Below, one piece after another: positions 3,674 to 51,374 of a stretch of 64,000 nt of DNA. Numbering within the stretch: the first letter of the stretch is position 1; each line of letters begins with the position of its first letter. Location of the stretch: assembly GCA_910589415.1 (NCBI GenBank), contig OU342633.1, positions 17,770,858 to 17,834,857 of the forward strand, in the 5' to 3' direction. Made by a program: the position numbers and the translations under genes. The stretch is from Malachius bipustulatus (taxonomy: Eukaryota; Arthropoda; Insecta; Coleoptera; Melyridae). The notes beneath the pieces are model-generated. The model was not told the origin of the DNA. It did not search any database and saw only the letters and a program-made list of their open reading frames with translations.

Positions 3674-5791
3674 TTATGACACCCATTCCATCAGTCTGGT
3701 TCCCAGAACTAACTTGTGCAGCCCCGTTACTGAATGAGTTTCATATTCTTCCGGACGCATTTTTTGTTGTCCGTATATCTCCTGTCTTCTGCGGTCCAGA
3801 GCCTCGCATTCACACAGTACATGTTTTGCTGTCTCCTGGGCCCTATTGCATTCTCGGCAACTTAGGTCTCCATTGAACAGTCCTATTTTATTTAAGTGTT
3901 CTTTTAGGGCAATATGTCCCGTTAGTAATCCCACTGTAATGCGTAACTGATTCCTGCTAAGTAATAGTAGTTCTTCAGTTGTCTTTTTTATGGGTCCTTT
4001 GATAAAGGTTTTCCCATGTTGGTGTTTGGTCCTTTTGTCCCAATATATTTTGTGTTTTTCTTTGACCCATATATTAACCTGACCCCGTGCTGTACTTTTT
4101 GGTACTCCCAGGGCAGGTTCTGGGCCAATGTATTTAGCCGAGGATCCTCTTCTTGCTAGCTCGTCGGCTTTTTCATTGCCTGTGATTCCTCTATGTCCTG
4201 GCACCCACATCAAGGTTACCTTATTGCGTTCTGCCAGGGTTTCGAGATTCTCACGGCATTCCCACAGTAGTCTGGACGTTATCTTGGGGCTTTCTATAGC
4301 CCTCAGAACCGCCTGACTATCTGTTAATATATTGATCCGCCTATTTTTGTAGGCCCTCTTATTGTTTATGCTCGCGCAGTGTAGCATAGCGTATATTTCC
4401 GATTGAAATACAGTTGCCCACTGCCCGAGAGATATGGTGTGTTGAGTATTGTCCAACTCATTGTATAAATGCCAGCTCCAGTTCCTTGGTCGGTCTTTGA
4501 CCCGTCAATGTACCAGGTTGTTCCGACCAGCCTGTTGCTGTCTGTGGGCTCATTCCATTCCTCTCGATCTTTGATGCTCACCTCAAAGCTCTTGTGGAAT
4601 TTGAATTTTGGAGCCATGTGGTCTGTGTTTGCATCTAGCAGGTCCACTTCCACATAGTTTTTGATTCTATTGTGTCCAAGTTCCGCATATTTGCCCCTTG
4701 GTTCTTCTTGCAGCCTTAGTCGTGCCAGTCTTGCCTCTCCCATTATCATTAGATGAAGTGGTGGGAGGTCTAGGAGGACTTCCATTGCTGCAGTTGAAGT
4801 AGTTTTCATTGCCCCCGTTATTCCAAGGCATGCGAGTCTTTGCACCTTGCTGAGCTTGTTTATCGCGGTATTTTGTTGCATCTTTGTCCACCATACCAGA
4901 GATGCATATAACAACATTGGTCTAATCACTCTGGTGTACGCCCAGTATACCATATGTGGTTTTAATCCCCATGTTTTCCCATAAGTTCGTCTGACCATCA
5001 TGAATGTGGTCTCCGCTCTTCTTTTAATCCTGTCTATCTGTTGGTTCCAGGTGAGTTTTGAGTCTAAGATTACCCCAAGATATTTCACCTCTCCCGATAT
5101 TTGTACGTTCCTGCCTCGAAGTTTTAGTGGTCCTAGGCCCACCAGTTTCCTTCGATTAGTAAACGCTATGATGGTTGATTTGGAGGGACTTATGTTCAGT
5201 CCCTCTTCGTTTGTCCATTTGGTTACAACATTTAAAGCCCTTTGCATGCAGGGCCTTATTGTGTCGTTAAATTTACCTTGAATTAGTATGACAAGGTCAT
5301 CAGCATATCCTATGCTCTTGATTCCCTCTTGGTCCAGACGTTTCATTAGCTCGTCCATAACAAGGTTCCATATCAATGGAGACAGTACGCCTCCTTGTGG
5401 ACACCCCCTTGCTACCTGAGCCACCACAGTCTCCCCAAATAGGGATGTGCATACCAATCTGCTTTTCAACATGAAGTCTATCCACCTGCATATTGTTGCA
5501 TTGATTCCTCTGTTCCTCAATGCATTGGAGATTGATTCTAGGGAGGTGTTGTCGAACGCACCTTCTATGTTCAAGAAAGCACATAATAGTACTTCCTTGT
5601 GTTTTATTGCGTATTCTGCCTTTTCTACCAGGTGGTGTAAAGCTGATTCCGTTGATTTTCCTGTTCTATATGCATGTTGGTCTTGATGAAATGGTCTGTT
5701 TGCCAGGACATCATCCCTTATATGCCAATCGAGCAGTTTTTCTAAAGTCTTCAGCAAAAAGGACATGAGACTTATGGGTCTTAGAGATTTT
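3674..5791 (-). pseudogene. LINE ORF2 fragment: reverse transcriptase, RNase H and zinc-knuckle tail
   Basis: The RT part runs from about 5791 down to 4457, with the catalytic motif YADD at 5296-5307 and the downstream thumb region. RNase H follows. The four acidic residues of the fold are visible: D in WYIDGSKT, E in QSEIYAM, D in LTDSQAVL and D in NEKADELA. A Cys/His tail (CRECNRAQETAKHVLCECEA) follows near residues 190-210 of the second frame. One frameshift near 4456-4475 puts the end of RT/start of RNase H and the remainder in different frames. The reading frame is therefore broken, in addition to the insertion at 5792. The first 15 or so residues of the long open frame (from 5835) belong to the inserted repeat, not to the LINE. 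Confidence 0.88.
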
Positions 5792-5842
5792 AGACAAAAG
5801 ATGAATGACATGTTGTCAGACAACATGCCATCCATTTATGTT

Positions 5843-5929
5843 GTGCTGTGAGCAGAGGCGGAAATTGTAGACACGTGTTTCGTCCTGTTTGGGACTCTTC
5901 AGTACAATGTATCTACCAACACACAGCAC
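5843..5929 (-). ncRNA. Type I hammerhead ribozyme, copy 1
   Basis: Read on the minus strand, outer helix I pairs GTGCTGTG (5929-5922) with CACAGCAC (5850-5843). An internal loop of about 13 nt per side follows. Inner helix I pairs ATTGTA with TACAAT. The core CTGAAGA (5902-5896) fits the consensus CUGANGA. Helix II is GTCC/GGAC with the loop CAAACA. GAAA lies at 5881-5878, then CAC-GTG, then T and C. Predicted cleavage is between 5870 and 5869. All conserved core bases are present. Helix III has only CAC/GTG with no spare loop bases, the minimal form typical of retrozymes, which often act as dimers. Confidence 0.88.
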
Positions 5930-6161
5930 AGTTTAGATCACGGATCCCGTGAGCAGAATGCAATGAAATAAAAATAAAAATAAAATAAACGGCACGGTGG
6001 GTTCGGCTTGCGCCATAGGATACACCCCAGACAGCCATAATGCATGCCAAAAATGAGTGCAGTGCCTCCCGGTGTGCATGAAGTAGGTAAAACCCCTACT
6101 AGGCGTTGCTAGACAAAAGATGAATGACATGTTGTCAGACAACATGCCATCCATTTATGTT

Positions 6162-6248
6162 GTGCTGTGAGCAGAGGCGGAAATTGTAGACACGTGTTTC
6201 GTCCTGTTTGGGACTCTTCAGTACAATGTATCTACCAACACACAGCAC
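6162..6248 (-). ncRNA. Type I hammerhead ribozyme, copy 2
   Basis: This motif is offset by exactly 319 bp from copy 1. The core CTGAAGA, GAAA and cleavage C, the helix II hairpin and both parts of helix I are all intact. The cut would fall between 6189 and 6188. Cleavage here and in copy 1 would release a 319-nt monomer RNA. Confidence 0.88.
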
Positions 6249-6480
6249 AGTTTAGATCACGGATCCCGTGAGCAGAATGCAATGAAATAAAAATAAAAAT
6301 AAAATAAACGGCACGGTGTGTTCGGCTTGCGCCATAGGATACACCCCAGACAGTCATTTTTGGCATGCATTATGGCTGTCTGGGGTGTATCCTATGGCGC
6401 AAGACGAACCCACCGTGCCGTTTATTTTATTTTTATTTTTATTTCATTGCATTCTGCTCACGGGATCCGTGATCTAAACT

Positions 6481-6567
6481 GTGCTGTGTGTTGGTAGATA
6501 CATTGTACTGAAGAGTCCCAAACAGGACGAAACACGTGTCTACAATTTCCGCCTCTGCTCACAGCAC
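6481..6567 (+). ncRNA. Type I hammerhead ribozyme, copy 3 (inverted arm)
   Basis: The same motif lies on the plus strand. GTGCTGTG at 6481-6488 pairs with CACAGCAC at 6560-6567. CTGAAGA is at 6508-6514, the GTCC/GGAC hairpin at 6515-6528, GAAA at 6529-6532, CACGTG at 6533-6538, and cleavage is predicted after C6540. Its orientation is opposite to copies 1 and 2 because it lies in the inverted arm. Confidence 0.88.
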
Positions 6568-6763
6568 AACATAAATGGATGGCATGCTGTCTGACAACAT
6601 GTCATTCATCTTTTGTCTAGCAACGCCTAGTAGGGGTTTTACCTACTTCATGCACACCGGGAGGCACTGCACTCATTTTTGGCATGCATTATGGCTGTCT
6701 GGGGTGTATCCTATGGCGCAAGCCGAACCCACCGTGCCGTTTATTTTATTTTTATTTTTATTT

Positions 6764-6972
6764 CTTAGAGATTTTGCCCCTTCCTGTCCTGTTTTCCCAG
6801 GTTTGGGTATATAAATTACTCTAATTAATGTCCAGGGTTTGGGTATGTGCCCCAGTGCAAGACTGCCCCTGAGGATCATACTTAGCCTCTGTGTCAGAAG
6901 ATGTGGTCCTTTCTGCAACATTATTGGGTAGATGCCATCTATACCCGGCGATTTATAGCCTAGTAGTACCCC
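6764..6972 (-). pseudogene. Upstream RT piece of the same LINE
   Basis: The minus-strand frame reads a typical LINE RT N-terminal segment, including HIPKPWTLIRVIYIPKPGKT. It runs into the 13-bp duplication at 6763-6775, where the ribozyme-bearing insertion begins. The other half of the RT resumes at 5791. The two pieces are clearly one gene split by the insertion. Confidence 0.85.
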
Positions 6973-6984
6973 ATATGCAGTAGT

Positions 6985-7482
6985 AGTATGTATAGTATAT
7001 TATATGTATATGACTTCATAACAAATGAAGATCGCAATTTTACATTATCAAAGCAATTTATCTCGAAAACAACTGACAAGTGACAATATCGGAAAACGAC
7101 TTTTTATGCGGTATTCTTACAACGTTAATTTTTTCACTTACATTTTTGAAACAGCAGAGCGTATTCTCTATTATAAGAAAACAAAGGTTTCAAAATTTCT
7201 AATATTAAAGATGTTGAGTTCTCAACTTTACCTCTTCATATCTCAGTCAATTTACAAGAGAAATTTTATCTACAATTTTTCTGCGCTTCTCTGATGACCC
7301 CCGAACAACATGCTGAAGAGTTTATGCGCCACTTACGGGACAGCTAGTAGATTGGGAACTATTAATAAATTATAAAATTTATGTTTTCAACCCTTACTTT
7401 GTAGATTGATAAATCTAATAAATATGTAAGAAAATAATTAGATCGATACGTTAGAGTTAGGTACCTATTTTGAATAATTAAA
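6985..7482. other. Interior of the hAT element, right of the LINE
   Basis: AT-rich. An 89-codon plus frame (7025-7294) has no recognisable domain and no homology I know. Probably non-coding. Confidence 0.45.
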
Positions 7483-8512: not shown

Positions 8513-9310
8513 TATTGCCCAACAGATTTACAACAAATCCAATAACAGGACAATATCTAAAGATTAGTAGGTAATAATATGTGCAGACAAAAACATCATA
8601 CCATTAAAACACTATCTATTATAAAATATTTAACAATATAACAATTTAGAAAGCAAGTTAGGGAACGAAGAAAATAAAGTTATACATAACCCTCACCCCA
8701 CCAACAAAAGCATGACAATATCTAAAAATTCAAATCAGCAACCCGCAATATATCAGTTAAGGAGCTGGCATTTAGGTCACAAAAACTAGAGATGCGATTA
8801 AAGTAGGTTGACATAACGTACACCGGCGATTTTAGAAGTACATTTGACCTTGCTATGCGCAAGGCAAACGTTTTTACATTTCTAGAATTTGAGCGAGGGA
8901 TATGAAAATTAAAAAGTTGAAGTATTGATGAGCAATCGATACGGTTATGGAAGAGACAGTATAAAAATTTAACAGCGACTAGCTTCCGCCTCTTCTCTAG
9001 TGACGTGAAGTCGAATTGTTTCAGCAGCAAGTCATGATCAAAGCCTCTAGTGGGAAACTCATTATGCACCCTATAACTGAGCATTTTCAAAAACCTCCTC
9101 TGAATACGCTCGACCTGACCAATGTGACATGTGTAGTAGGGTGACCACACAATACTGCAATAATCCAATTTGGATCTAACGTAGGAGTAAAAAAGAATTT
9201 TCAATGAATTAATATTTCTAAAATCTCTACAGTTCCTACTTATGAATCCAAGCATTTTAGAATAATGATATTATTTCTATTTTCTGCGAAGGTTACGTCC
9301 AGAGTGTCAA
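8510..9310 (-). pseudogene. LINE 3' fragment (Jockey/CR1-like RT C-terminus)
   Basis: The 177-codon frame (8722-9255) is the post-catalytic part of a Jockey/CR1-type reverse transcriptase. It includes LGFISRNCRDF and the segment SKLDYCSIVWSPYY, which is conserved after the RT palm. Upstream coding (DTLDVTFAEN, about 9265-9310) continues in another frame, so there is a frameshift near 9257. About 210 bp of 3' UTR and the (ATT)n tail follow. The 5' part of the element is absent. Confidence 0.82.
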
Positions 9311-15659: not shown

Positions 15660-16441
15660 AAAAAAATATTTATTTATTTATTTAATTACAACCATCCAAC
15701 AACCAGCCAATTAAGGATGGACTTAAAAATAAGAGAAATAACGAAGAGTAACAGAGACTGCGCAATCTCAAACACAATATGACCTAAGAAATATTCACAC
15801 TAACAGCCCTAATTTGCGACAGTGAAGTGCAAAAAATATCGAGCTCGCTCTGGCATACCAAGTAGTTAGAGCACATACTGTAGAGTGGTGACAGCTGAAG
15901 TACTCGTGTACGAGGCAATGATAGATAAAAAATGGACTGATGACGAGCTGTCAATCTCGGGACAGCAAAGTTAATAGCACCCAACAGTTCAGGAACGTCA
16001 GCAAAGCCGTTTAGTATTTTGAACAGGAGAATAACAGAGAATATAAATCGCCGCTCGCTTAAACTAGAAAGGCCAAACCTGCTAAGCAGATCCAACTGTG
16101 GGATCCCCCGAGATGGGTAAACCGAGTCCAGTCTATAGGACAGATATTTAAAAAATTTCCTCTGTACACTCTCAAGTCTGTCGATGTGAACCCGGCAGCC
16201 CGGTGCCCAAACAACAGAAACATATATTCCAGACGTGATCCAACAAGGGCATAGTACAGGCAAGATATTGTGTCAATATTCGACACGTCACGCGAATTTC
16301 CTATAACAAATCCCAATGTTCGCAGAGACGATCTAACTAAATAATTGATATGTTGATTAAACGATAGCAATGAGTCAAAAAAGACACCAAGACCTTTATA
16401 TTCAGAGCAGCGGGAAAGAGATTCGCCTGATATCGTGTAAT
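15660..16441 (-). pseudogene. Downstream half of a Jockey-like LINE, split by the BEL insertion
   Basis: Minus-strand frames encode the post-palm part of the RT (GLGVFFDSLLSFNQHINYL, then VHIDRLESVQRKFFKYLSYR and onward). A frameshift lies near 16230 and the stop near 15784. A short 3' UTR and a (TAAA)n tail at about 15669-15690 mark the 3' end. The coding sequence breaks at 16441, where the BEL target duplication begins, and continues upstream at 23014. Clade assigned from RT similarity only. Confidence 0.82.
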
Positions 16442-16446
16442 TATAC

Positions 16447-16665
16447 TGAATTCGATAGAATGACTGTATATTTTCTGGTTTTACTAATTGCCTTTATATT
16501 AAACAATCTTTTTAGTTTAATACCTTTAATTTTAGTTTTAATAAATCAGTTCAAATCAACGTACACATTGCAAGTCGACGGGCATCGGAAGAGTGCGTGA
16601 ATCTGTACAAAATATCATCACAGCGCATCTGCAACGTTGTAACATCTAACATAATTTCTTGAACA
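16447..16665 (-). repeat. 3' LTR of the BEL element
   Basis: 219 bp, identical to the other LTR. It directly abuts the polypurine tract at 16666-16672 on one side and the TATAC duplication on the other. Confidence 0.95.
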
Positions 16666-16672
16666 TCCTCCC
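16666..16672 (-). other. Polypurine tract of the BEL element
   Basis: The minus strand reads GGGAGGA immediately before the 3' LTR, the expected plus-strand primer site. Short but in the right place. Confidence 0.65.
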
Positions 16673-16845
16673 GGCCATTGACTTGTCAATTACAAAATTA
16701 ACAATCAAAAAGACATAACATTAGAATTCTTAGATTAAGTACCTGAACATGGTAGGTAAGTATAAACTAAGTAACATCATAGTATAATAGTAACTAAAAT
16801 TTTCACTGAATGAAATAAATGCATCACACACACATTTATAATGTT

Positions 16846-18993
16846 TTAAGTAACAATTTTCTCACAGGTATCGTCTGGCAATGGACACAACCGAGCAACA
16901 CAACGTTTGTATTCACCATGTGCAGTTTTAACACAAACAGTACGTATGATTCCATCTTGATCTGGAAACAGCTGTGTAACACGTCCCATGGGCCAGGAAC
17001 AAGGAGGTAAGTTGTCGTCTTTGATGACTACTAAAGCACCGATCTTGATGTTTGCTGACTGCTTGCGCCATTTTCCTCGTTGCTGTAGACTGTTCAAATA
17101 GTCTCTTGACCAGACCTTCCAAAAAGACTGGTTGATTCGTTGAAGGAGTTGAAACCTTGATAATCGATTGACTGGAATGTTGTCGAGTAATGGATCAGGT
17201 AGAGTTATGAGTGACTTCCCAATCAAAAAATGCGATGGCGTGAGTGGTTGCATGTCATCAGGATTGGAAGACATAGGATAAAGTGGTCGGGAATTCAATA
17301 CAGATTCAATCTGAGTTGTGACAGTAAGGAACTCCTCGTATGTCAATTTTGTGTCACCAATGACTCGGTAAAAATGATATTTAAAGCTTTTCACACTCGC
17401 TTTCGCTTCCCAAATGCCTCCAAAGTGTGGAGAGTTAGGCGGATTGAAACTCCAAATAATACCCTCAGCAGCGCACTGTGCATTGATTTCACTCTGTGAT
17501 TGATTAATAAATCTTGATAGCGCTTGCAATTCTTTATTTGCCCCTACAAAGTTTGTTCCATTATCTGACCAGACCTTGTATGGCTTACCACGTCTGGATA
17601 CAAAACGTCTGAAGGCAGAAATAAAATTCTCAGTTGTCAAATCTGTTACAATTTCAAAATGAACAGCCTTACTCCAAAAACATATGAAAACGCAAATGTA
17701 TGATTTATAAAACTTCGCACCTTTACCCTTTCGGTCACGCAGCATGAAAGGACCAGCATAATCTAAGCCTGTTACATAAAATGGACTGGTCATCGTGACT
17801 CTGTCCTTGGGCAAATCAGCCATTATTGGATTAATTGACCTAGGTTTGAATTTGAAACACTTCACGCATTTTCGTACTATTGACTTTGATGTACAAATTC
17901 CTGAAGTTGGCCAAAATTCTTGACGGACAATAAAAAGTAACATTTGTGGAGGTGCATGACAATACATCTTGTGAAAATGTTCAAACACCAACTTTGTGAA
18001 ATGGTGTTTGTGACTAAGCAACATTGGATGTTTTGCATTAAATGTCACATTGGAATGTTTAATACGCCCTCCAACACGTAGTATACCTTCCTCATCAATG
18101 AAAGGAGAAAGACTACTTAATTTATTGTTGTCTTTTAATTGTAACTTATTATTCATTGTACACAATTCATTGCTAAAACATTCTGATTGAGACAAACGAA
18201 CCAAACACTTCAAGCTACTTGCTAATTCTTGAATGGACAAAAGGGACCTATTCCTGTGCTCGGCCTTTATCTTGCAATTAGAAATGAATCTAAGGACATA
18301 TGCCATGACATGTTTTGCTCTCGTTAGAGTAGAGTATCTTTTGAATTCAAAGAAGGTTGAATCTTTTAAGGAAACTTCCGTTGATAATAAACATTTTGCC
18401 TTAATTTCAGGTAAGTCTATTAATGGAACAGTGGGATTTGATTCTAGATAAATCTCTGTATCTGAGAGAAACGGTGGACCTTGGAGCCATTGAACATTTC
18501 CAACTAAGGACTCTGGAAGTGCTCCTCGCGAAACTATGTCAGCTGCATTGTTTTCTGACCTAATGTAATGCCAGTCATCTACACAGGTAAGTTTTCTGAT
18601 TTCCCCTACCCTGTTGCTAACAAAAGTCTGCATTAATCTTTGTTCGGTATGTATCCAACTTAAAACGATCTTTGAATCACACCATTGGTAGCACTTCACC
18701 TGAAGATTCATTGAATTCAATACTTTGTTTGTTAAACGTGCTAGTGTAAGTGCTCCTAGCAATTCTAAGCGTGGTATTGTTTGTGACTTAACTGGTGCAA
18801 CCTTTGTCTTTGCACACAGCAAGTTAACAGAAACCTTATCTTGTTGATCTATGCTTCGTAAATAAATCACTGCACCATAGCTGTACAGTGATGCATCAGA
18901 GAACCCGTGTAACTCTAAAATCTTTGCATTTGGAACTGTCACTTGCCTTGGAAACTCTAGAGTATTGAGAATGGGTAGCTGTGCTCTGAACAT
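16846..18993 (-). CDS. BEL RNase H-integrase part of the polyprotein
   Basis: This frame has 715 codons from the first Met at 18993, but coding similarity continues upstream of this Met in the same frame (ENLESKWK). The Met is therefore probably internal and the frame the second half of the pol gene. RNase H residues are D33 (GFSDAS), E77 (RLELLG), D106 (WCDSK) and D152. The integrase zinc-binding region has H331/H339-type histidines and CVKC at 376-379. The integrase triad is D411 (GLDYAG), D477 (SDNGTNF) and E529 (WEAK). The C-terminus (about 640-705) fits the domain found at the end of BEL integrases. No internal stop. Confidence 0.92.
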   Translation of the reverse strand: MFRAQLPILNTLEFPRQVTVPNAKILELHGFSDASLYSYGAVIYLRSIDQQDKVSVNLLCAKTKVAPVKSQTIPRLELLGALTLARLTNKVLNSMNLQVKCYQWCDSKIVLSWIHTEQRLMQTFVSNRVGEIRKLTCVDDWHYIRSENNAADIVSRGALPESLVGNVQWLQGPPFLSDTEIYLESNPTVPLIDLPEIKAKCLLSTEVSLKDSTFFEFKRYSTLTRAKHVMAYVLRFISNCKIKAEHRNRSLLSIQELASSLKCLVRLSQSECFSNELCTMNNKLQLKDNNKLSSLSPFIDEEGILRVGGRIKHSNVTFNAKHPMLLSHKHHFTKLVFEHFHKMYCHAPPQMLLFIVRQEFWPTSGICTSKSIVRKCVKCFKFKPRSINPIMADLPKDRVTMTSPFYVTGLDYAGPFMLRDRKGKGAKFYKSYICVFICFWSKAVHFEIVTDLTTENFISAFRRFVSRRGKPYKVWSDNGTNFVGANKELQALSRFINQSQSEINAQCAAEGIIWSFNPPNSPHFGGIWEAKASVKSFKYHFYRVIGDTKLTYEEFLTVTTQIESVLNSRPLYPMSSNPDDMQPLTPSHFLIGKSLITLPDPLLDNIPVNRLSRFQLLQRINQSFWKVWSRDYLNSLQQRGKWRKQSANIKIGALVVIKDDNLPPCSWPMGRVTQLFPDQDGIIRTVCVKTAHGEYKRCVARLCPLPDDTCEKIVT

Positions 18994-19007
18994 TTTCCAC
19001 TTGGATT

Positions 19008-22000
19008 CTAAGTTTTCTGGAACTGGATCGTCCAGTCATTGTTCACTCGCCAAAGATCTTGGATGATTAACTTTCCCAGTACAATACATGGACTAACTAA
19101 GCCTAATGGATCATATAATTTAGAAATATCAGAAAGAATACTTCTCTTCGTTACTTGTGACGTATCTGAAGCCTTGTCAACGTGAAAAGTTAATTTGTCA
19201 TCTGTGGATTTCCATTGCAAACCTAGTATTTTGACTTTATCTGTGCTTACCAACTTGACTAAGTTTATCGGGTCATTGCTCTTGCGTAAAACCTTGTATA
19301 TAGATGGAGAATTCGAGTTCCACTTTTGCAGTGGAAAACCTGCCGAATTTAAAACTGATTGTATCTCTTGCGAAACCTGAATTGCCTCTGTTTCTGTCTC
19401 AAAACCTGTCATGAGGTCGTCGACGTAAAAATCTGATAAGATAATCTTACTTGAAATTGGGAACCTCTCTACATTGTCTAAAGCCACTTGTTTCAGGCAT
19501 CTCATACTTAGAAAGGGTGCCGACCTAGTACCATATGTAACAGTATTGAGTACAAATATCTTTACTGGTTCATTGGGGCTTGCTCGCCAGAATATCTTTT
19601 GCAGAGACCTATCTTCCTCATCAATCATAATTTGCCTGTACATTTTTTCAATGTCTGCACAAACGACAAAATTATGCTTCCTAAATCTTAGCAAAACTGA
19701 CACGATGTCGTTAACAATAGGTGGACCTACATGTTGTAAGTCATTGATTGACCAACCTGAGCTAGTCGCATGAGACCCATCATAGACAACTCTAACCTTA
19801 GTTGTAATGCTCTCTTCCCTTGACACACAATGATGAGGTAGATAATATGAAATATCTGCTTGCTTGCTCTCATCTGACAATGACATATGACCCAATGATT
19901 GATACTCTTGCATGAACTTACAATAATCTTGCCGTACTTGTGGATTCATCTGTAATTTATGCTCTAACTTGAGAAACCTACTCATTGCTGTTCTATTTGA
20001 ATCACCTAAAAATTCTCTAGGATACTTTAGAGGTATACGAACTTTGTACCTCCCATCGTCTAACCTTGTGAGATTTTCTGTGAAATGTTTTTCACATTCT
20101 TGCTCATCCTTTGACAAAATTGTTGAAGAGTTTTCAACCTCTTCTAACTCCCAAAACTGCTTCAGGTCAAAATTGATCGATTGATTCTTTGAAAAATTAC
20201 AATGGGTTTTTTCTACTGGAAGATTAACAGATCCTGAAATGATATACCCAAATTCTGTGTTTTGCAATATTGGCATATTCTTTCCTAAATTTATCCTTTG
20301 ACCTTTGAGTAGATGCCAAAAATGACTAGCACCTATTAGTAATTCAATATTACTAGGATGATTGAACTGACTGTCTGCCAAAGTTACATGGTTTGGAATA
20401 TTCCATTTGGAAATATCTAACGGTACTGCGGGTATACTATCTGTGATTTCTTTGATTACCAGACATGACAAATCATGTGTACGATCTTTATTATTACCCG
20501 ATATGACCACATTGCATTTAAACTTGACATTGGACATTCCTTGATTAATGCCCACAACATTGACATTAATTGGATTCACCTGAATTCCTAGCTGATCACA
20601 CAGTTTGCGAGATATGAAACATGACTGTGAGCCACTATCCAATAAGGCCCTAACCTTATGAGGACAACCTTGCGAATCAAAAACCGAAACCATAGCTGTT
20701 GATAGAAGAACCAATTGACTACCAACAGAACATTGCATTGAAACCTGTGGTGGTTTTGCAGGCGCATTTCTTTGACATAGTAACGTATTATGCCTAGCTT
20801 TACACTGACCACAGACACCTGAGCGACATTGTTTTTCATTGTGCCCTAGACAAAGACAATTTTGACAAAGCCTTAATTGTTTTATCTTGTCTATTCTAGC
20901 AGGAATAGACAGGCCTAAAAATTCGCTACACTGGTAAATTTTATGCGATTCTTGGCATACATAGCAACTTGCACCTGTCGACGATACTAGCGCCATCTGG
21001 CGACCTGTAGTACCCCGAAAATCTCTCTGTAGAGCTCTGTTGACATTGCTGACACTATGATTAGTATCTAGAACTTCTAAGAGATTTGCTCTTGTACTCA
21101 AAAATAATATCATATCATCGAGACTTGAAAAATCATTGTCAATCTTGTGCCGTTCCCATTCCCTAAGCGTAGACCTATCTAACTTTGTCATAACAATGTA
21201 AACTAGTAGAGTGTCCCACTGACTTACGGGCTGCCCTAAGGACTCGAGAGAACGTAAATGTTTGTTAAGAGTATCAATTAAATTTCTTAGTTTCCTAGAG
21301 GACTCTTTAGCTAGTGTTTCCAACTCGAAAATAGATTTAACATGACTATGAACAAGGATCCTAGAGTTATCAAATCTTTTGCATAATAACTCCCAAGCTA
21401 AATAATAGTTGTCTGAGGAAAATTCTAATGACTGTATTACTCTTAAAGCTTCATCTTCTAAAGATGCCTTAAGGTAATGGTACCTTTGTATATCATTGAT
21501 TGAATCATTGTTATGAATTAGCGACATGAACAAGTCTTTGAAGCCCAACCATTCGACATGGCCTCCTTTGTACTTCGGAAGTTCGATTGTTGGTAACTTT
21601 ATGTTCATCCTATTTGCATCTATCTGAGTATCTGAGTGAAAACTAATTGCACCATTGCTATCATGTACACTTGATCTGTGCTGCAATGGTTGTAAAGGGT
21701 TACTTGTATTAGGCTGCGCATGGACATCGTTTAAAACTAGCGGGTTCGGTACATTATTTACATTTGACTGAGTGATCTGCTCTACTATTTGAACCTGCTG
21801 AGCCTGAACCAAAGGTTGCGTTTTATCACTGTTATCTAACTGAAAATCAGACAAAATAATTTCAGCATTTGCCAAGCTTGCTGAGAAACTCCTATCAAAT
21901 TCTTCCCTGTATTTGTATTGCTCGTCAAGCTCCTTCTCTTCACACAAACTTTCTACTTTTATCTGAATCGTTTCAAATTCTTCCTCTAGATCTTTAAATT

Positions 22001-22169
22001 TGACAAATTTATGTTCTAACTGCTTAAAATCTGCACCTTTAATAGGTTTTTTATTTTCAAAATCTTTTTGCAACGGTGCCAAAAAATTAGAAAAAATAGT
22101 TAACTTTGTCTTAATTGTACCCCTAGCACGTTTTAATTGCGCAACAATTTCATCACTTTCATCCGCCAT
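19008..22169 (-). CDS. BEL gag-protease-reverse transcriptase polyprotein
   Basis: This 1053-residue frame starts at ATG 22169. Residues 1-110 are charged and probably coiled-coil. Residues of about 191-340 (from LPTIELPKYKGGHVEWLGF) form the gag-like DUF1759 domain of BEL elements. A CCHC zinc knuckle CQNCLCLGHNEKQC lies at 435-448 with a second Cys/His cluster after it. The aspartic protease motif LLDSGSQSCF has its catalytic D at 511. Reverse transcriptase follows, with the active site YVDD at 915-918. The frame stops in the region linking RT to RNase H. RNase H and integrase lie in the next frame (16846-18993), so a single indel near 19008-19030 most likely splits one original polyprotein. 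It would act in virus-like particles in the cytoplasm. Confidence 0.93.
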   Translation of the reverse strand: MADESDEIVAQLKRARGTIKTKLTIFSNFLAPLQKDFENKKPIKGADFKQLEHKFVKFKDLEEEFETIQIKVESLCEEKELDEQYKYREEFDRSFSASLANAEIILSDFQLDNSDKTQPLVQAQQVQIVEQITQSNVNNVPNPLVLNDVHAQPNTSNPLQPLQHRSSVHDSNGAISFHSDTQIDANRMNIKLPTIELPKYKGGHVEWLGFKDLFMSLIHNNDSINDIQRYHYLKASLEDEALRVIQSLEFSSDNYYLAWELLCKRFDNSRILVHSHVKSIFELETLAKESSRKLRNLIDTLNKHLRSLESLGQPVSQWDTLLVYIVMTKLDRSTLREWERHKIDNDFSSLDDMILFLSTRANLLEVLDTNHSVSNVNRALQRDFRGTTGRQMALVSSTGASCYVCQESHKIYQCSEFLGLSIPARIDKIKQLRLCQNCLCLGHNEKQCRSGVCGQCKARHNTLLCQRNAPAKPPQVSMQCSVGSQLVLLSTAMVSVFDSQGCPHKVRALLDSGSQSCFISRKLCDQLGIQVNPINVNVVGINQGMSNVKFKCNVVISGNNKDRTHDLSCLVIKEITDSIPAVPLDISKWNIPNHVTLADSQFNHPSNIELLIGASHFWHLLKGQRINLGKNMPILQNTEFGYIISGSVNLPVEKTHCNFSKNQSINFDLKQFWELEEVENSSTILSKDEQECEKHFTENLTRLDDGRYKVRIPLKYPREFLGDSNRTAMSRFLKLEHKLQMNPQVRQDYCKFMQEYQSLGHMSLSDESKQADISYYLPHHCVSREESITTKVRVVYDGSHATSSGWSINDLQHVGPPIVNDIVSVLLRFRKHNFVVCADIEKMYRQIMIDEEDRSLQKIFWRASPNEPVKIFVLNTVTYGTRSAPFLSMRCLKQVALDNVERFPISSKIILSDFYVDDLMTGFETETEAIQVSQEIQSVLNSAGFPLQKWNSNSPSIYKVLRKSNDPINLVKLVSTDKVKILGLQWKSTDDKLTFHVDKASDTSQVTKRSILSDISKLYDPLGLVSPCIVLGKLIIQDLWRVNNDWTIQFQKT

Positions 22170-22770
22170 CGTGTTGATAAAAATAAATGAAATTAACCTT
22201 ACTAATAATAATTATTAAGTAAGTAGGTATCTACGTAAATCAATGCACTTTACTTTGCTGAAAATAAATAACACAAACAATGATAACGTGTTATAATTTT
22301 GATCACTTGCCGAATTTATTAAATTCATTCACTGACTACAACCACATGTGAGCGCCGAGTGTGAAATCGAATTTCAATTAAATTCAAATCTTTGCTAAAA
22401 TGAATGTCTTTGAATAATTATTATCTTTGCTGAATAATTATAATCTTTGCTGAACTTTGTCTTTGAATAATTAGATTGAATCATGCATTACCTTTAATTT
22501 CATTTGTTTCAGGAATAATCATCATTGTGTAGGTGAAACAAACGTGGAAATAAAATTGGAAATAAAGGAAATGAATACAACCTTGAAAACTGGTGATGGT
22601 GCTGCTTGAAGCGTCGATGAAACTTGTCTCGTCTCCTGATCTATTCTTCTCACCCTTCTACCAGAGTATGTATCTCGCTATCTTCGTTGCTGCTCCCTTG
22701 AGCCACCGGACGACTGGACCGTGGAATGACAACCTGACTGAACTTTTAAATCTTTGTTTTTTACTAAAAT
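22170..22770 (-). other. Leader of the BEL element
   Basis: About 600 bp between the primer binding site and the first ATG. No long frame. It would be expected to hold packaging signals, but none can be recognised from sequence alone. Confidence 0.6.
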
Positions 22771-22786
22771 GGGGATCGAAGGACCA
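22771..22786 (-). other. Primer binding site of the BEL element
   Basis: Three bases past the 5' LTR the minus strand reads TGGTCCTTCGATCCCC. It begins with TGG, the complement of a tRNA 3' CCA end. I cannot name the tRNA. Position and start support the call. Confidence 0.6.
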
Positions 22787-22789
22787 TTA

Positions 22790-23008
22790 TGAATTCGATA
22801 GAATGACTGTATATTTTCTGGTTTTACTAATTGCCTTTATATTAAACAATCTTTTTAGTTTAATACCTTTAATTTTAGTTTTAATAAATCAGTTCAAATC
22901 AACGTACACATTGCAAGTCGACGGGCATCGGAAGAGTGCGTGAATCTGTACAAAATATCATCACAGCGCATCTGCAACGTTGTAACATCTAACATAATTT
23001 CTTGAACA
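22790..23008 (-). repeat. 5' LTR of the BEL element
   Basis: 219 bp. On the minus strand it begins TGTTCAAGAAATTATG and ends GAATTCA, and it matches the LTR at 16447-16665 at every position compared. It should hold the promoter for the element. Confidence 0.95.
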
Positions 23009-23013
23009 TATAC

Positions 23014-23660
23014 ATAAGTTGGTTTTTGCTTTTGGAATATGACAAAACTGTGCATTTGGCTATGTTTATAAGCTCAGTAATTTCTTAGAATACCTACCAC
23101 TCATGAAACGAGATAAGCTTTGACTGAAGTTCTACTACGTCATACACAGATTCAATTCTCGAGAACCCCTTTAAATCATCGGCATAGAGGAGACAGGAGT
23201 CTGGAAACAGCGAGGTGACATCGTCCATGAAGATATTGAACATCAATGGCTCCATGACTGAACCCTGGACAACGCCTGAGGGCACCGGGGAAACAACCGA
23301 TCTGCAACCGTTTAGCTCAACAAACTGGCTGCTATCCATTATATAACTTTCCATCAGCTGAATAAAGCCATTGGTAAGGCCAAAATTCTGGAGTTTAGAA
23401 ATAAGAAGACCGTCATGAAGGCTGTCAAATGCTTTACTAAGGTCCGTATATATCACGCGCACCTGAGTTCCGACGTCAAGAGATTCTGCAATAAACTGGT
23501 GCATAACAGATATAGATTTGTCTGAGTAGACCTACTAGCAATGAAACCATGCTGGTAGGTTGAGCCTGCGTGCGACCCAGGGCGATATTTGGTTATGGAG
23601 ACAAAATTCAAACAGTTTGGAAAAGTTATTGAAAGGAATACAGCGAGGAAATGAAATGGA
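23014..23660 (-). pseudogene. Upstream half of the same Jockey-like LINE (RT palm)
   Basis: The frame 23094-23504 holds the RT palm with VIYTDLSKAFDSL, then GVVQGSVMEPLMFNIFMDD, then LLYADDLKGF (catalytic YADD). An adjoining frame holds QHGFIASRSTQTNLYLL (around 23530). Below 23094 the frame shifts, and the sequence coding for INIAKCTVLSYSKSK runs right up to the BEL target duplication at 23009-23013. The text then picks up at 16441. Two frameshifts at least; the 5' part of the element is missing. Confidence 0.85.
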
Positions 23661-27829: not shown

Positions 27830-28989
27830 TATACATGTCCGGAAATTATGAGCAAAAAATTAAGGGGGTGATTCTCCTTGATGAAATATTGCCCAAAGTA
27901 TCTATAATTTTTTTTCGAAAACTCAAAAATAAGAAAGTTATAAGCCTCCAATGTTGATTTTTTTAAATCAATATTTTTTTATAACTTTTTTCCAGTGTAC
28001 GGATTTTCTTAAAATTTTACACACTTGCCACTGCGATGTTGCTTTACATCCTTGGTCCAAATTAGACTTGAATCTTTAATCTATAACTTTTTTCGTAATA
28101 TTTTATTCTGAGTTTTGAAGACGCATAATTGAAGAACATGAAGGAACAGAATTCGGAAAAGGTCCTCTTTGTCTATCACGATAAAATGACCTGGTTTCCG
28201 AGTAAAACTGTTTTACAAATTTGCTTGCACTAAAATTGATCACCATAAATTATGATCATTTTGCAATAACACCAAAGCATGCTTTGGAAACAGCTGCAGG
28301 GTTGCCTAGTTATGTACAAAACAGAGACATTCGTATATAAATGGACTTGGAAATGATTTTTTTTTGAAAATGAAAAAAATTTTTAATCATTTTTTTTTAA
28401 ATAAAATAATTTTAATAAAAAAAATTAATTGCTGTCAAAATAAAATCCAAAGCAAACGTCTTGTTTCCTAGGCAACCCTGCAGCTGTTTCCAAAGCATGC
28501 TTTGGTATTGTTGCAGAATGATCATTTATGTAGTTTATGGTGATAAATTTTAGTGCAAGCAAATTTTTAAAACAGTTTTACTCGGAAACAGGTCATTTTA
28601 TCATGATAGACAAAGAGGACCTTTTCCGAATATTTCTTCATGTTCTTCAATTGTGAGTCTTCAAAACTCAGAAAAAAATATTACGAAAAAAGTTATAGGC
28701 CTTTTGTGAAGGTCAAGGGCAGTTAAGGTCTTTGGATTTCGAGGGATTCAAGTCTAATTTGGACCAAGGATGTAAAGCAACATCAGTGGCAAGTGTCAAA
28801 TTTTAAGAAAATCCGTACACTAGAAAAAAACTTATAAAAAAATATTGATTTTAAAAAATCAACTTTTAAGGCTCATAACTTTCTTATTTTTGAGTTTTCG
28901 AAAAAAAATTATGGATACTTTTGGCAATATTTTATCAAGTGGAAACACCCCCTTAATTTTTTGCTCATAATTTCCGGACACTCTGTATA
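27830..28989. repeat. Long palindromic foldback element, 1.16 kb
   Basis: The two arms of about 480-520 bp (27835-28315 and 28465-28982) are reverse complements with scattered differences, around an A/T-rich loop. Outer ends are TATACATGTCCGG on the left and the complement of TATACAGAGTGTCCGG on the right. Landmarks pair well: GTCCGGAAATTATGAGC at both ends, and the CCAAAGCATGCTTTGG palindrome near both inner ends (28272 and 28491). No gene. Confidence 0.88.
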
Positions 28990-42789: not shown

Positions 42790-43627
42790 TACAGTGTGTC
42801 ACAGGCATGGTACCTACACCTCCTTTTTTTTCTTTATTTTTTGAGATAATTTTTTAAAATTTGGTACGTCGCATATTCTCGATAGAGCGCACTTTTTATC
42901 AGAAAAATTAATTTTTCCCACATCCGGTTTTTCCGGAAATGTTACCAACTTTTTATTTTTAAGTGGCACACCCTATATATTATTATATTTTTGAATTCTA
43001 TACATTTGTATGAATCCAACAATACCACATAAGTACCATTTTTAATGTCAAATTTGTTTTTATTTAATTTTTTATTTCTCAATTATAGTGTGCCATGACT
43101 TCAGTTGTGTTCGTCACAGATGCAAAATGGGTACACCAAAATGTTCCTTATTAAGAGTACTAGTAGATGGTACCTCGGTACCAATATGGTACCATTTGAA
43201 AAAAATGTATCCAGCTCAAAAAATCATTCCGGTGCGCATAATTTATCCATAAATCACTTCATTTAGTAATTAGAACAAAAATTCGATTTTTATAGCACTA
43301 GATGATCCAATTGGAGTAAAACGAAATAGTCATGGCACACTATAATAATTTGAGAAATAAAAAATTTAATAAAAACAAATTTGACATTTAAAATGGTACT
43401 TATGTGGTACTGTTGGATTCACACAAATGTATAGAATTCAAAAATATAATAATATATAGGGTGTCCCATTTAAAAATAAAAAGTTGGTAACAATTCCGGA
43501 AAAACCGGATGTGGGAAAAAATTCAATTTTCGGTTAAAAAGTGCGCTCTATCGAGAATATGCGACGTACCAAATTTCAAAAAATAAAGAAAAAAAGGGGG
43601 TGTACCATGCCTGTGACACACACTGTA
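42790..43627. repeat. Long palindromic foldback, ACAGTGTGTCACAGG ends
   Basis: Arms of about 310 bp (42790-43105 and 43328-43627) pair almost throughout, around a loop of about 220 bp. The ends are TACAGTGTGTCACAGGCATG and the complement of TACAGTGTGTGTCACAGGCA. It holds an inner CACCCTATATATTATTATA / TATAATAATATATAGGGTG pair, itself resembling an ACAGGGTG-type end. Confidence 0.9.
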
Positions 43628-47050: not shown

Positions 47051-49096
47051 TAAATCATTTTGTAGGCCGGTACATAAAAATTTGTTAATTTTGATTCTCA
47101 TTTTATGGTACAATTATTGAAGTTTTGCGTTATTTATACGTGTCAAACGGTTAAAATAATTTGAAACCACATGAGTAGTAAAAACTCTGTAAATTTTGTA
47201 CGAAGGGGCGGAAAGAAGAAAGACCGATCTTCTGCTTACGGTGTTAGTCAATACAGTACTTTTTAGCGCATACGGACTTAAAAACATGTCGTTATTGGAA
47301 AAATCGCCTTTTCTACGAATCGGTTTTTTAATATTTATTATCCAATAATTATTATGGATTTGTCACCTACGTGACACTGATTGTAGAATAATAATTGAGA
47401 AACCCGATTAATTTTATTGCTTATAAGAAAGGCGGTAGAATAATTATTAGCAGAGCGTATCTCGCACGTGTAGGGGACAAACTATCAACTGCGTGTTTTT
47501 ATTTGAAAAGTTATAAATCTGTATGCAATCGCAACAAACAAAAAGCTAAGTACCTACAGCTGTTTATGACATTCATGAGATTTAAATAATAGCTATTTAT
47601 GATATTAGTGTTAAAGTGAAGTTTTATTTTGTGAGTGAAAAGGTTTGTGAAATGAGAAGAAGCTTAGCGGAGCGAATTTTACAAATTCACGAGCAAAATA
47701 AAATCATTTTTAAGACGAATATCGTACAATGGTTTTTGTAAAACTGCTCTATTTTGAAAATAAAATTGATGAATTTTGAATGACACTCAACTTCAAATTG
47801 CATTTTAAAATATTACATATAAGTACAAGAAGTGTACTATGCATAGCAACCGTTGCCGACGCTATGGGTACTATAACAAATGCGTGCATACAAATAAAAG
47901 AGATGTCATAATAATTATTATTTAATTGCAATTTCTGAACAATTATTATTGTCTTGAATTCTTGACTGGGTACTTATTTTTTATTAATATGTTTGCCAGT
48001 AATAAAAAGAATATGAAAAAATCTTACTACCTATAATTTTGTCTGATTTCATCATGAGAAAGAACGTAGTTTAAAAAGAGAATGTACAGAAAAAGTAGAT
48101 CGAAATACTTTTAACACGAGTGTTGTAATGTACTTTTAACACGCTTCCATGTAAACAATCACTTTTAACACTGTCAGCTGTCGTTAAAAGTGTGACTTTT
48201 AATGGCAGTTGCACAAAAAAAGTTATTAACCATCCATTATCGATTTTACCCTTGTCGATCATAAATGTAACATCTGACCTTCATCCATGTTCCTCGCTAT
48301 TTCATTATAATTTTCTGAATGTTTCTTCGCTCAATATTAAAACATGGTTTTTATTGGAACTTGTTGGTAATCTGCTCATAAAAGCTTCATTTTTTGGTAT
48401 GCTCAAATATGATCGTGACGAATATATTTATGACAAACCATAGAATGTGTAGTTTTGTGTATTTTTTGTTTCTATCGGCAGATTTTGGTTTCCAAACTGT
48501 ATATGTAGTTACAGCTTGAACATGAAGATTATATGGATGCATTACTAAATTTAAATTGTAATATTTAGGTATTAATAATGCACAAAATTATAATTTTCTC
48601 AGTTCACTTCACTTCTTACTCTCAAGTATAGGTACTGTGCATACTACAATGGCGTACCTATTGTCTTTTTACACTAATATTCTACTACAGACTACAGTTC
48701 TAAAAATTTCACTACTCCAATGTCTTCCACAATCGGTTCTCTTATAGACTAACTTTTATTCCACAATTATTTACTCATTTTATTCTTTACTTCCACTTTG
48801 TACTAATAATTATGTTGGAGCTGTTTTTTGCAAAAAAAAAGGTACCTCTATACCTTCCAATCCAAACTGTACTGACTTGCGCTGACCGGTCCGTTGAACA
48901 TTTATGAATCGAAACAGAAACTCTCCAAACGTCAAGGTGTCACTGTCACGTCGAGAAGTGATCATCGTCATCGCGAACAATCATCTCCAAAATGTGGATT
49001 ATAGGCACTAACTACTTCATAACCTCATTTTTTCATATCCTAAAATCCCACCATGGAATTTACATCAGCGTCTCCTACAGTTTCACTATGGCACCT
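47051..49096. other. AT-rich non-coding stretch with a short repeat cluster
   Basis: At 48107-48203 the word ACTTTTAACAC appears three times directly and twice inverted within about 100 bp. No gene. The patch 48870-49000 is less AT-rich but has no frame. Confidence 0.45.
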
Positions 49097-49867
49097 ATAC
49101 AGGTTGTTTTGTAATTGAATGTTAATATTTAAGGGGGTGATTTTTGGGTCCATTTTAACAAGAAAACTTCATAAGAACGTATGTCCTAAAAATCTTAACT
49201 TTTGAGATTCAGGGTGGTAAAGTTTTAAAAAATATTTTTTTTTCATAATATCTGTAATACCTCTCTTGATATTTTAATGAAATTTAATAGACAGGTATTA
49301 CCCATCAAGAGGCATTTTTTCATATACCAGATTTCGTTTTATTTCCACTAGTGACGAATTTCACCTGTATATTTTTATATTTTTTTAGTGTCATTTAACG
49401 ACAATCTTTTGACCATGTAGAAAAACAGATTTTATTTTTTTAGGCAGAAACCGTGCATCGGCCTGAAAAAAAAATAAGTAGGTAATCAAATTTGCTTGGA
49501 AATGAATGGGGATTCCGAAAATTTCTATGTGAACAGAAATCAGTGGCGTACCATCAATGTCTGCTAAAATAAGCCGGTAAAATTGTGCACGATCGTACAC
49601 CATCGTCACTAATGGACATAAAATGAAACGTGGTACATAAAAAAATGCCCCTTGATGCGTAATACCTGTATAGGTAATTTCATTAAAATATCCAGAGCGG
49701 TATACGAGATATTACGAAAAAATGATTTATTTTAATAAAACTTTACCATCCTGTATTTCAAAAGTTAAGACTCTTAGGACATACGTTCTTATGAAGTTTT
49801 CTTCTTAAAATGAACCCAAAAATCACCCCCTCAAATATTGACATCCAATTACATAACACCCTGTATA
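49097..49867. repeat. Foldback element, TACAGGKTGTT ends, about 770 bp
   Basis: Left TATACAGGTTGTTTTGTAAT faces right ATTACATAACACCCTGTATA. Arms of about 270 bp pair, for example GGGGGTGATTTTTGGGT near 49133 with ACCCAAAAATCACCCCC near 49813. The central loop contains a short chance frame only. Confidence 0.88.
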
Positions 49868-51374
49868 GAGGTGGAGAACATATACCTCTAGTAACACAAG
49901 GAAGGTATTCATTTGCTTTGCAAATGCATGCTTAGCCAAAAAAAAACACTAAAAATAGATTTTCAGAGTAACGTTGAGAGTGCGGACCTGGCAAGAAGCG
50001 CCGATTAAATACCTCGAGTCTCGGAAGTAAACACTTGACGACAATTCTAAGCGCTTCGAAGCGTACAGAGACGTACCGGCACTATATCCGCTTTCTCATA
50101 TCGTGACCAGACCACAGGAATTGATGTTACGATTTTTGGAATATAAATATAAAATAAATGCAAAATTCAAATTAATAATCGTGCTACTGTTAATCTCGAA
50201 GATATTCCTTGCGCTGAAAGTGAAGAAAAAATAGAAATTCGACCGCAGTGTCAAAGAGACCTTAGTTGTGACCTTAATATTAGTTTGCAACAGCTGGTTT
50301 TAGCTTCTTACCCACCCAGCACCCCTATTTCGCTCCTCGGTCCTGAAAAAATTGATGGAACTTAGGACACGCGGATGTAAATATTTACCATTAAATTTAT
50401 AGATTTTTCTATTATAAAAAAATGACCTACCTATTCAAAAAGAATAAAAAAAGTGGTACAACTCGATTATCTTATTTCACCAGTTTCAAGGTGAAACAGT
50501 ATAGGTAATAAGTAGGTAGGTATCTATATAACCCAACCATATGTTTAATTTCTGGTATAAAAACTGAAAAGCAGGTGTTAAAAAAACAATGGTGTTAATG
50601 TCCTCAGGTGACATGTATAGCCATATAGATAACTAAGTAGTAAGACTAAAATGTACACCTTTAGCAGTGCACTACCCGCGATATTTATTACAGCTAGTCT
50701 TTATGTAAGATTTATACACCTAATTACGTATACAGCGTTGTTACTACGGGTGGTACTTTAATAAAATGGATATGTTTGATTTATGAACAACGATTACTAC
50801 AATAATTAGCACAGACAGTAGGTTAATTCTGCTTAATTACGTATCAGGGAGTTTAGAAACACGCATTCATTATGTTTGTCCGAGTGTTTATGTGTTAGCA
50901 CTGTCATCTCATCTATACCTACGCTTATTTATAAATCGTCATTGTTCTGCAAATATATCCCTCGATCTATTTACCTTAGGACCAAGTTCTTTGCGAATTT
51001 CAATTTATTAGAAATTTAATTGTCGATTTAGTGAGTAGGTATATTTGTTCCAGATTCTGCTTTTTTATGCAAGTGAAAGATTTTTCTGTCTTATTTTTTA
51101 TTTTTTATGTGATATGACAACACTCCATACCTTTGAATTCTTAAATAAAAAATCACCTCAAAAGAGTTACTTTTGATGAGTAGGTACCTAAGTACTTGCT
51201 ACCTGTATTATGTCACAGTGAGCCTAATAATGTTAATAGTTTTAATTTTTTTGAGAAAAAAAAGTATACAGATTTATTTGAGCCAAACATTTTTCGAAAG
51301 TCCCTTTATGTATCTTGATAAGCACTTGTAGAAAATTATCTGACCATCCTACCCTTTCATTATGGCAACTCGTG
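49868..51374. other. Non-coding stretch
   Basis: 49970-50345 is somewhat richer in G+C, without a credible frame. The rest is AT-rich. Confidence 0.4.

Follow-up and report, generated by a model that had tools for sequence, protein, structure and literature searches.

A LINE in the 64-kb stretch of DNA analysed here (the window) is interrupted by a 971-bp insert built of two arms that meet head-to-head, each of which runs through a 319-nt unit with a type I hammerhead motif for more than one full turn. The insert is very probably a retrozyme-type insertion, and priming from both strands of the target on a multi-turn RNA, whether circular or multimeric, is probably the reading that fits it best. 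Whether that template was a circle is a question on which we are evenly divided. In full, we propose that the locus may record reverse transcription through more than one round on a ribozyme-made RNA circle, begun at both cut strands, with the two copies joined mid-way, a reading to which we give slightly less than even weight. The coordinates of the insert, its parts and its target are given in Table 1.

Table 1. Coordinates, within the window, of the insert, its component features and the interrupted LINE
Feature	Position	Strand	Basis
Interrupted LINE (RVT_1), part downstream of insert	4366..5790	-	Pfam RVT_1 4.3e-37, scanned as ORF 4366-5835
Target site duplication, left copy TCTTAGAGATTTT	5779..5791		Perfect 13-bp match to 6763-6775
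Whole retrozyme insert, 971 bp, non-coding	5792..6762		13-bp duplication at both ends
Left arm, 562 nt = 1.76 turns, circle 155 to 78, two hammerheads	5792..6353	-	Ungapped circle placement
Hammerhead type I copy 1 with distal helix I	5843..5929	-	Rfam core 5864-5908, 58.7 bits
Predicted 319-nt monomer between both minus-strand cleavage sites	5870..6188	-	Predicted cuts
Hammerhead type I copy 2 with distal helix I	6162..6248	-	Rfam core 6183-6227, 58.7 bits
Head-to-head arm junction	6353..6354		5' ends 22 nt apart on circle
Right arm, 409 nt = 1.28 turns, circle 133 to 222, one hammerhead	6354..6762	+	Ungapped circle placement
Hammerhead type I copy 3 with distal helix I	6481..6567	+	Rfam core 6502-6546, 58.7 bits
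Target site duplication, right copy TCTTAGAGATTTT	6763..6775		Perfect match to left copy
Interrupted LINE, part upstream of insert (..IYIPKPGKTGQEG)	6776..6957	-	Relatives match both flanking pieces

The hammerheads account for all of the gathering-level Rfam matches in the window: a cmscan search of its whole length returned three, each to RF00163 (Hammerhead_1), with 58.7 bits against a cut-off of 34 (E 7.5e-13) and over the full model (1-45). The preliminary description had placed three type I hammerheads in this region, to be checked with the Rfam type I model, and the Rfam cores indeed fall within its 87-nt motifs, at the same places and on the same strands. Similarly, the hammerhead core pattern is found at these three places and nowhere else in the window, and gave no match across 100 shuffles. 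Exact hammerhead and unit patterns had 0 occurrences in viral, bacterial and archaeal contigs, collections that are unsuited to an animal repeat and silent on its rarity.

The arrangement of the 319-bp unit in tandem and with an inverted copy, which had also been described, is borne out by a direct repeat (5791-6038 and 6110-6357, at 319-bp spacing) and by inverted arms (5965-6357 and 6372-6764), each at 99% identity. The unit, with a GC content of 45.1%, does not code for protein, as had been claimed: the insert contains no ORF of at least 85 aa, and the ORFs of this size that touch it are 4366-5835, which belongs to the LINE, and 6673-6999, which has no Pfam match. Release of 319-nt monomers had been expected as well, and here the outcome depends on the strand. 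The minus strand holds the sole tandem pair, and its predicted cuts (between 6189 and 6188 and between 5870 and 5869) would free one exact monomer, but on the plus strand just one cut is predicted (between 6540 and 6541), which would free none. A blastn search found no further full copy of the 319-nt unit elsewhere in the 64-kb window, and a search for two box patterns of the polymerase III promoter gave no match on the unit's sense strand.

The limits of the insert are sharp. The left duplicate of the target shares its final T with the unit (1-nt overlap) and the right duplicate its initial TC (2-nt overlap), and if the insert and one duplicate are removed, the LINE frame is continuous and reads IYIPKPGKTGQEGAKSLRPISLMSFLLKTLEKL. 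Both flanking pieces are matched by 55 of the 120 LINE relatives listed (825 were found in all), with either 1 residue (43 proteins) or 0 residues (12) between the pieces when the alignments are extrapolated to the piece ends; among the other listed relatives, the match is confined to the downstream piece in 58 and absent for both pieces in 7 (E 0.01). Because the frame rejoins and relatives span both pieces, we consider the target to have been an ordinary LINE and the insertion to have been clean. An organism is named for 15 of the 120 listed relatives, and all are insects (including Diaphorina citri, Graphocephala and Macrosteles). The LINE itself is already decayed, with an RNase_H match (1.2e-11) in a different frame at 3674-4504 and a stop further upstream; the first 15 codons of ORF 4366-5835 (5791-5835) derive from the insert by chance. 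Elsewhere in the window, ORFs 8722-9270 and 15784-16272 look by eye like the C-terminal parts of LINE reverse transcriptases and have no Pfam match.

These flanks bear on two alternatives. False palindromes occur with some library methods, and we therefore considered that assembly or amplification might have created the one seen here, which is hardly credible: a mirrored read would have mirrored its flanks as well, whereas here the flanks make up a single LINE frame, one half on each side, and are accompanied by the target duplication. The second alternative, two separate insertions with the second at the edge of the first, would permit the difference between the arms at position 47 of the circle (described below), but has no direct support, and we regard it as very unlikely, since neither arm is framed alone by a duplication and one 13-bp duplication frames both. 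We thus rejected two nested insertions, from which a duplication around a single arm is expected and is absent.

Both arms can be placed without gaps on a 319-nt circle, numbered such that the cleavage site lies just before position 1. At the junction, the similarity between the arms consists of a CAT common to both after one mismatch, and at the outer limits the 3' end of each arm borders directly on the target, sharing 1 nt of sequence with it on one side and 2 nt on the other. Between them, the two arms pass over the cleavage point three times, and the sequence there is free of mismatches. This seamless crossing rules out a cleaved linear monomer as the sole template; therefore, the template would have been either a circle or an uncleaved multimer. 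The copies of the unit differ at only three sites (circle 47, 183 and 189), with the minority letter present once at each, and because the differing sites are few, the insertion looks young. One template plus errors or later mutation suffices to account for all three. Two templates are equally allowed, since the arms differ at circle 47, at which T is found twice in the left arm and C once in the right arm.

The placement on the circle also bears on another explanation, in which a single head-to-tail array was inserted and DNA recombination subsequently turned a part of this array round. The insert length, equal to 3.04 units, agrees with such an array, but turning either arm breaks the 319 register: position 155 meets 222 rather than 154, and position 78 meets 133 rather than 79. 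Simple inversion of an array, free of any loss or gain of sequence, is thus ruled out, and we consider the explanation as a whole highly improbable.

Both arms are antisense copies that grow inward from the target, and it is for this reason that we propose two target primers. A comparison is provided by a survey of L1 insertions (PMC12016303), in which the two copies end within 20 bp of each other in 132 of 287 inverted insertions and the median target duplication is 13 bp; the values at this locus are 22 nt between the ends and a duplication of 13 bp. The nearness of the arm ends gives weak support, because two independent ends would lie within 22 nt on a 319 circle in 14% of cases by chance. 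In addition, the Penelope-like enzyme PAc both cuts and extends the two strands in vitro, and starts inside the RNA (PMC11167929); by analogy, the overlaps of 1 and 2 nt at the priming sites are in line with an internal start of the PAc type.

A different source for the second arm would be self-priming, or snap-back, in which one target-primed copy folds back and is recopied by the enzyme. Self-priming was proposed for the Penelope elements of Adineta vaga, among which inverted repeats with palindromic joins are abundant and mostly head-to-head (PMC3846280), and the short CAT/ATG hairpin at the join described here could act as a primer. The lengths of the arms, however, argue against it. If the left arm had templated the right, 265 nt would have been available from the join and 409 were needed; if the right arm had templated the left, at most 387 nt would have been available and 562 were needed. 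Simple snap-back is thus ruled out, since the copying would enter the target DNA, and self-priming of any kind appears distinctly unlikely, although an added switch to a second RNA falls outside the length test.

Priming from both target strands therefore remains our preferred reading, and it would have proceeded as follows. By analogy with the tested animal retrozymes (Cervera and de la Pena), the type I hammerhead would have released a 319-nt RNA from tandem transcripts, and this RNA would then have been closed to a circle. A borrowed endonuclease and reverse transcriptase, most likely Penelope-like, would have cut the strands of the LINE 13 nt apart, and each free 3' end would then have primed its own antisense copy on the hammerhead-sense RNA, with the start inside the RNA and away from the cleavage site. 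Each copy would have continued for more than one turn (562 nt and 409 nt), after which the two would have been joined head-to-head in the middle of the insert and the 13-nt overhangs filled in. Retrozymes that move by templating on a circle are a published model (PMC7229834, PMC7761336). The Penelope-like enzyme is a guess, as the window yielded no GIY-YIG gene among its ORFs of at least 85 aa.

The same two-strand priming might instead have used a linear transcript, left uncleaved and at least two units long, with no circle at all, an explanation that we regard as somewhat unlikely and nevertheless as a serious competitor. With PAc in vitro, hammerhead mutants left insertion unaffected and unprocessed RNA was the dominant substrate (PMC11167929), results that, by analogy, speak for a linear template; the same study saw no RNA-seq ends at the cleavage site (PMC11167929). 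The hammerhead here also has a competing predicted fold, which may favour this explanation. On the other side, three intact cleavage points were copied at this locus, and an efficient ribozyme would have cut such an RNA; moreover, animal retrozyme RNA has been observed in the form of linear monomers and of circles, and in axolotl in multimers as well (PMC7229834).

The folding energy of the 87-nt motif has a z of -2.08, with 7 of 200 shuffles equally good, and by itself gives moderate backing to the hammerhead fold. The best thermodynamic fold of the motif contains an alternative helix (-25.7 kcal/mol, compared to -23.5 for the hammerhead fold), in which, over 8 bp, GUAGAUAC is predicted to pair with GUGUCUAC across the cleavage site in all three motifs. 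In the circle, modelled pairing probabilities are 0.21-0.50 for inner helix I and 0.39-0.46 for the alternative helix. A competing fold does not imply a dead ribozyme, because tertiary contacts are absent from the folding model; we speculate that the alternative helix might be an on/off switch that protects the RNA circle. Helix III is short (ACACGUGU), with two pairs and a tetraloop, a form described as similar to invertebrate hammerheads (PMC7229834), and would have four pairs in a dimer. The 319-nt circle as a whole has a predicted pairing of 60% (z -1.97 versus 100 shuffles), lower than the self-pairing of 'above 70%' given for other metazoan retrozyme RNAs (PMC4918200).

A transcript of the whole locus would be expected to make a hairpin with 393-nt arms, in which the plus-strand ribozyme would be buried against the antisense copy of itself. 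It is more likely that the locus is a dead end, or that small RNAs are made from it, than that it is a good donor of new copies. A sub-threshold match to mir-30 at 6328-6401 (39.2 bits, cut-off 50.2, E 3.7e-05) overlies the hairpin at the arm junction, and in our view it is not a microRNA.

The window holds several other repeats. A BEL/Pao retrotransposon occupies 16447-23009 on the minus strand, with Pao domains between direct repeats (16447-16666 and 22790-23009) that are 220 bp long and 100% identical, and it was probably inserted recently; an organism is named for 32 of its 51 relatives, of which 31 are insects and 1 is a nematode. Taken with the named LINE relatives, this points to an insect host. 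A reverse transcriptase fragment lies just beyond it (23094-23531, RVT_1 4.4e-12), and the BEL/Pao element may thus itself have landed in a LINE. An inverted repeat at 42838-43595, with 190-nt arms that are 92% complementary and 267 nt between them, is possibly a foldback or miniature DNA transposon. Two further long inverted repeats are found at 27836-28980 (156 nt, 92%) and 49095-49868 (138 nt, 90%), and a sub-threshold match to MIR7723 at 28274-28503 (34 bits, cut-off 200).

Integration of retrozymes has been proposed to occur by primed copying of a circle (PMC7229834), and in the literature we consulted this step is proposed yet undemonstrated. We found no retrozyme insertion read as twin priming in the open-licence literature searched, and in the same literature no joint description of a hammerhead ribozyme and a head-to-head inverted-repeat retrotransposon. 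In the insert described here the ends are clear, the empty site can be inferred and the copies differ at three sites, so that the integration step becomes readable from sequence: where priming started, how far each copy ran and how the copies met. If our reading is true, the same process would account for the tandem units of retrozymes and Penelope-like elements as well as for their head-to-head repeats, with no need for self-priming or for antisense templates. It would thus offer a concrete alternative to self-priming, by which the head-to-head repeats of Penelope-like elements have been explained (PMC3846280), and one that can be checked in genomes rich in retrozymes. The evidence comes from one locus.

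The preliminary description had suggested the architecture either of retrozymes or of hammerhead-bearing repeats in Penelope-like elements. The first comparison holds, based on the type I hammerhead, the non-coding 319-nt unit with a GC content of 45%, the 13-bp duplication and the insertion in a LINE; the Penelope-like label is not supported, as the insert encodes no protein and none of the 56 ORFs of at least 85 aa in the 64-kb window has a GIY-YIG match. That description passes over the target duplication and the interrupted LINE, and does not treat the inverted layout as informative in itself. The insert fits a non-autonomous non-LTR retrozyme of the metazoan type described in 2020 (Cervera and de la Pena 2020, PMC7229834), whose carriers include insects. 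Both have type I hammerheads and tandem non-coding units. The metazoan units are 170-400 nt in dimers or longer, compared to 319 nt here in arms of 1.76 and 1.28 units, and their target duplications, when present, exceed 4 bp, compared to 13 bp. Their GC content is given as <50% in the text and <45% in a figure of that report, and the 45.1% found here lies within the text value only. Unlike in these retrozymes, the units of the present insert also stand head-to-head.

Among other hammerhead-bearing repeats, the schistosome W-elements (PMC8490949) and the ∼330 bp repeats of newt (PMC7229834) are likewise tandem with a type I hammerhead, and one W-element has a duplicated target sequence (PMC8490949), but a head-to-head insertion like the present one is not seen in the parts of these reports that we drew on. 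The repeats of Nematostella have a 15-bp target duplication (PMC4918200). Plant LTR retrozymes differ substantially, with type III hammerheads in their LTRs and a 4-bp duplication, compared to type I and 13 bp here.

The Penelope-like elements of Adineta vaga (PMC3846280) and the Poseidon element of Anolis (PMC11167929) resemble the insert in the head-to-head inverted repeat with target duplication and in an internal start of reverse transcription, and Poseidon, like the insert, carries a hammerhead. However, Penelope-like target duplications are 8-10 bp in the cases cited, and absent in some copies there, compared to 13 bp here; Penelope-like hammerheads are reported to be minimal variants (PMC7229834), whereas that of the insert is a full type I; and the autonomous Penelope-like element has a reverse transcriptase and GIY-YIG, genes that the insert lacks. 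The 5' inversions of L1 that arise by twin priming (PMC12016303) share with the insert two antisense copies made from both target strands, ends that are often close and a duplication of ∼13 bp. For L1, the poly(A) tail of a linear mRNA is where priming of one copy takes place, while at the locus described here both copies start inside the unit and each exceeds one unit in length.
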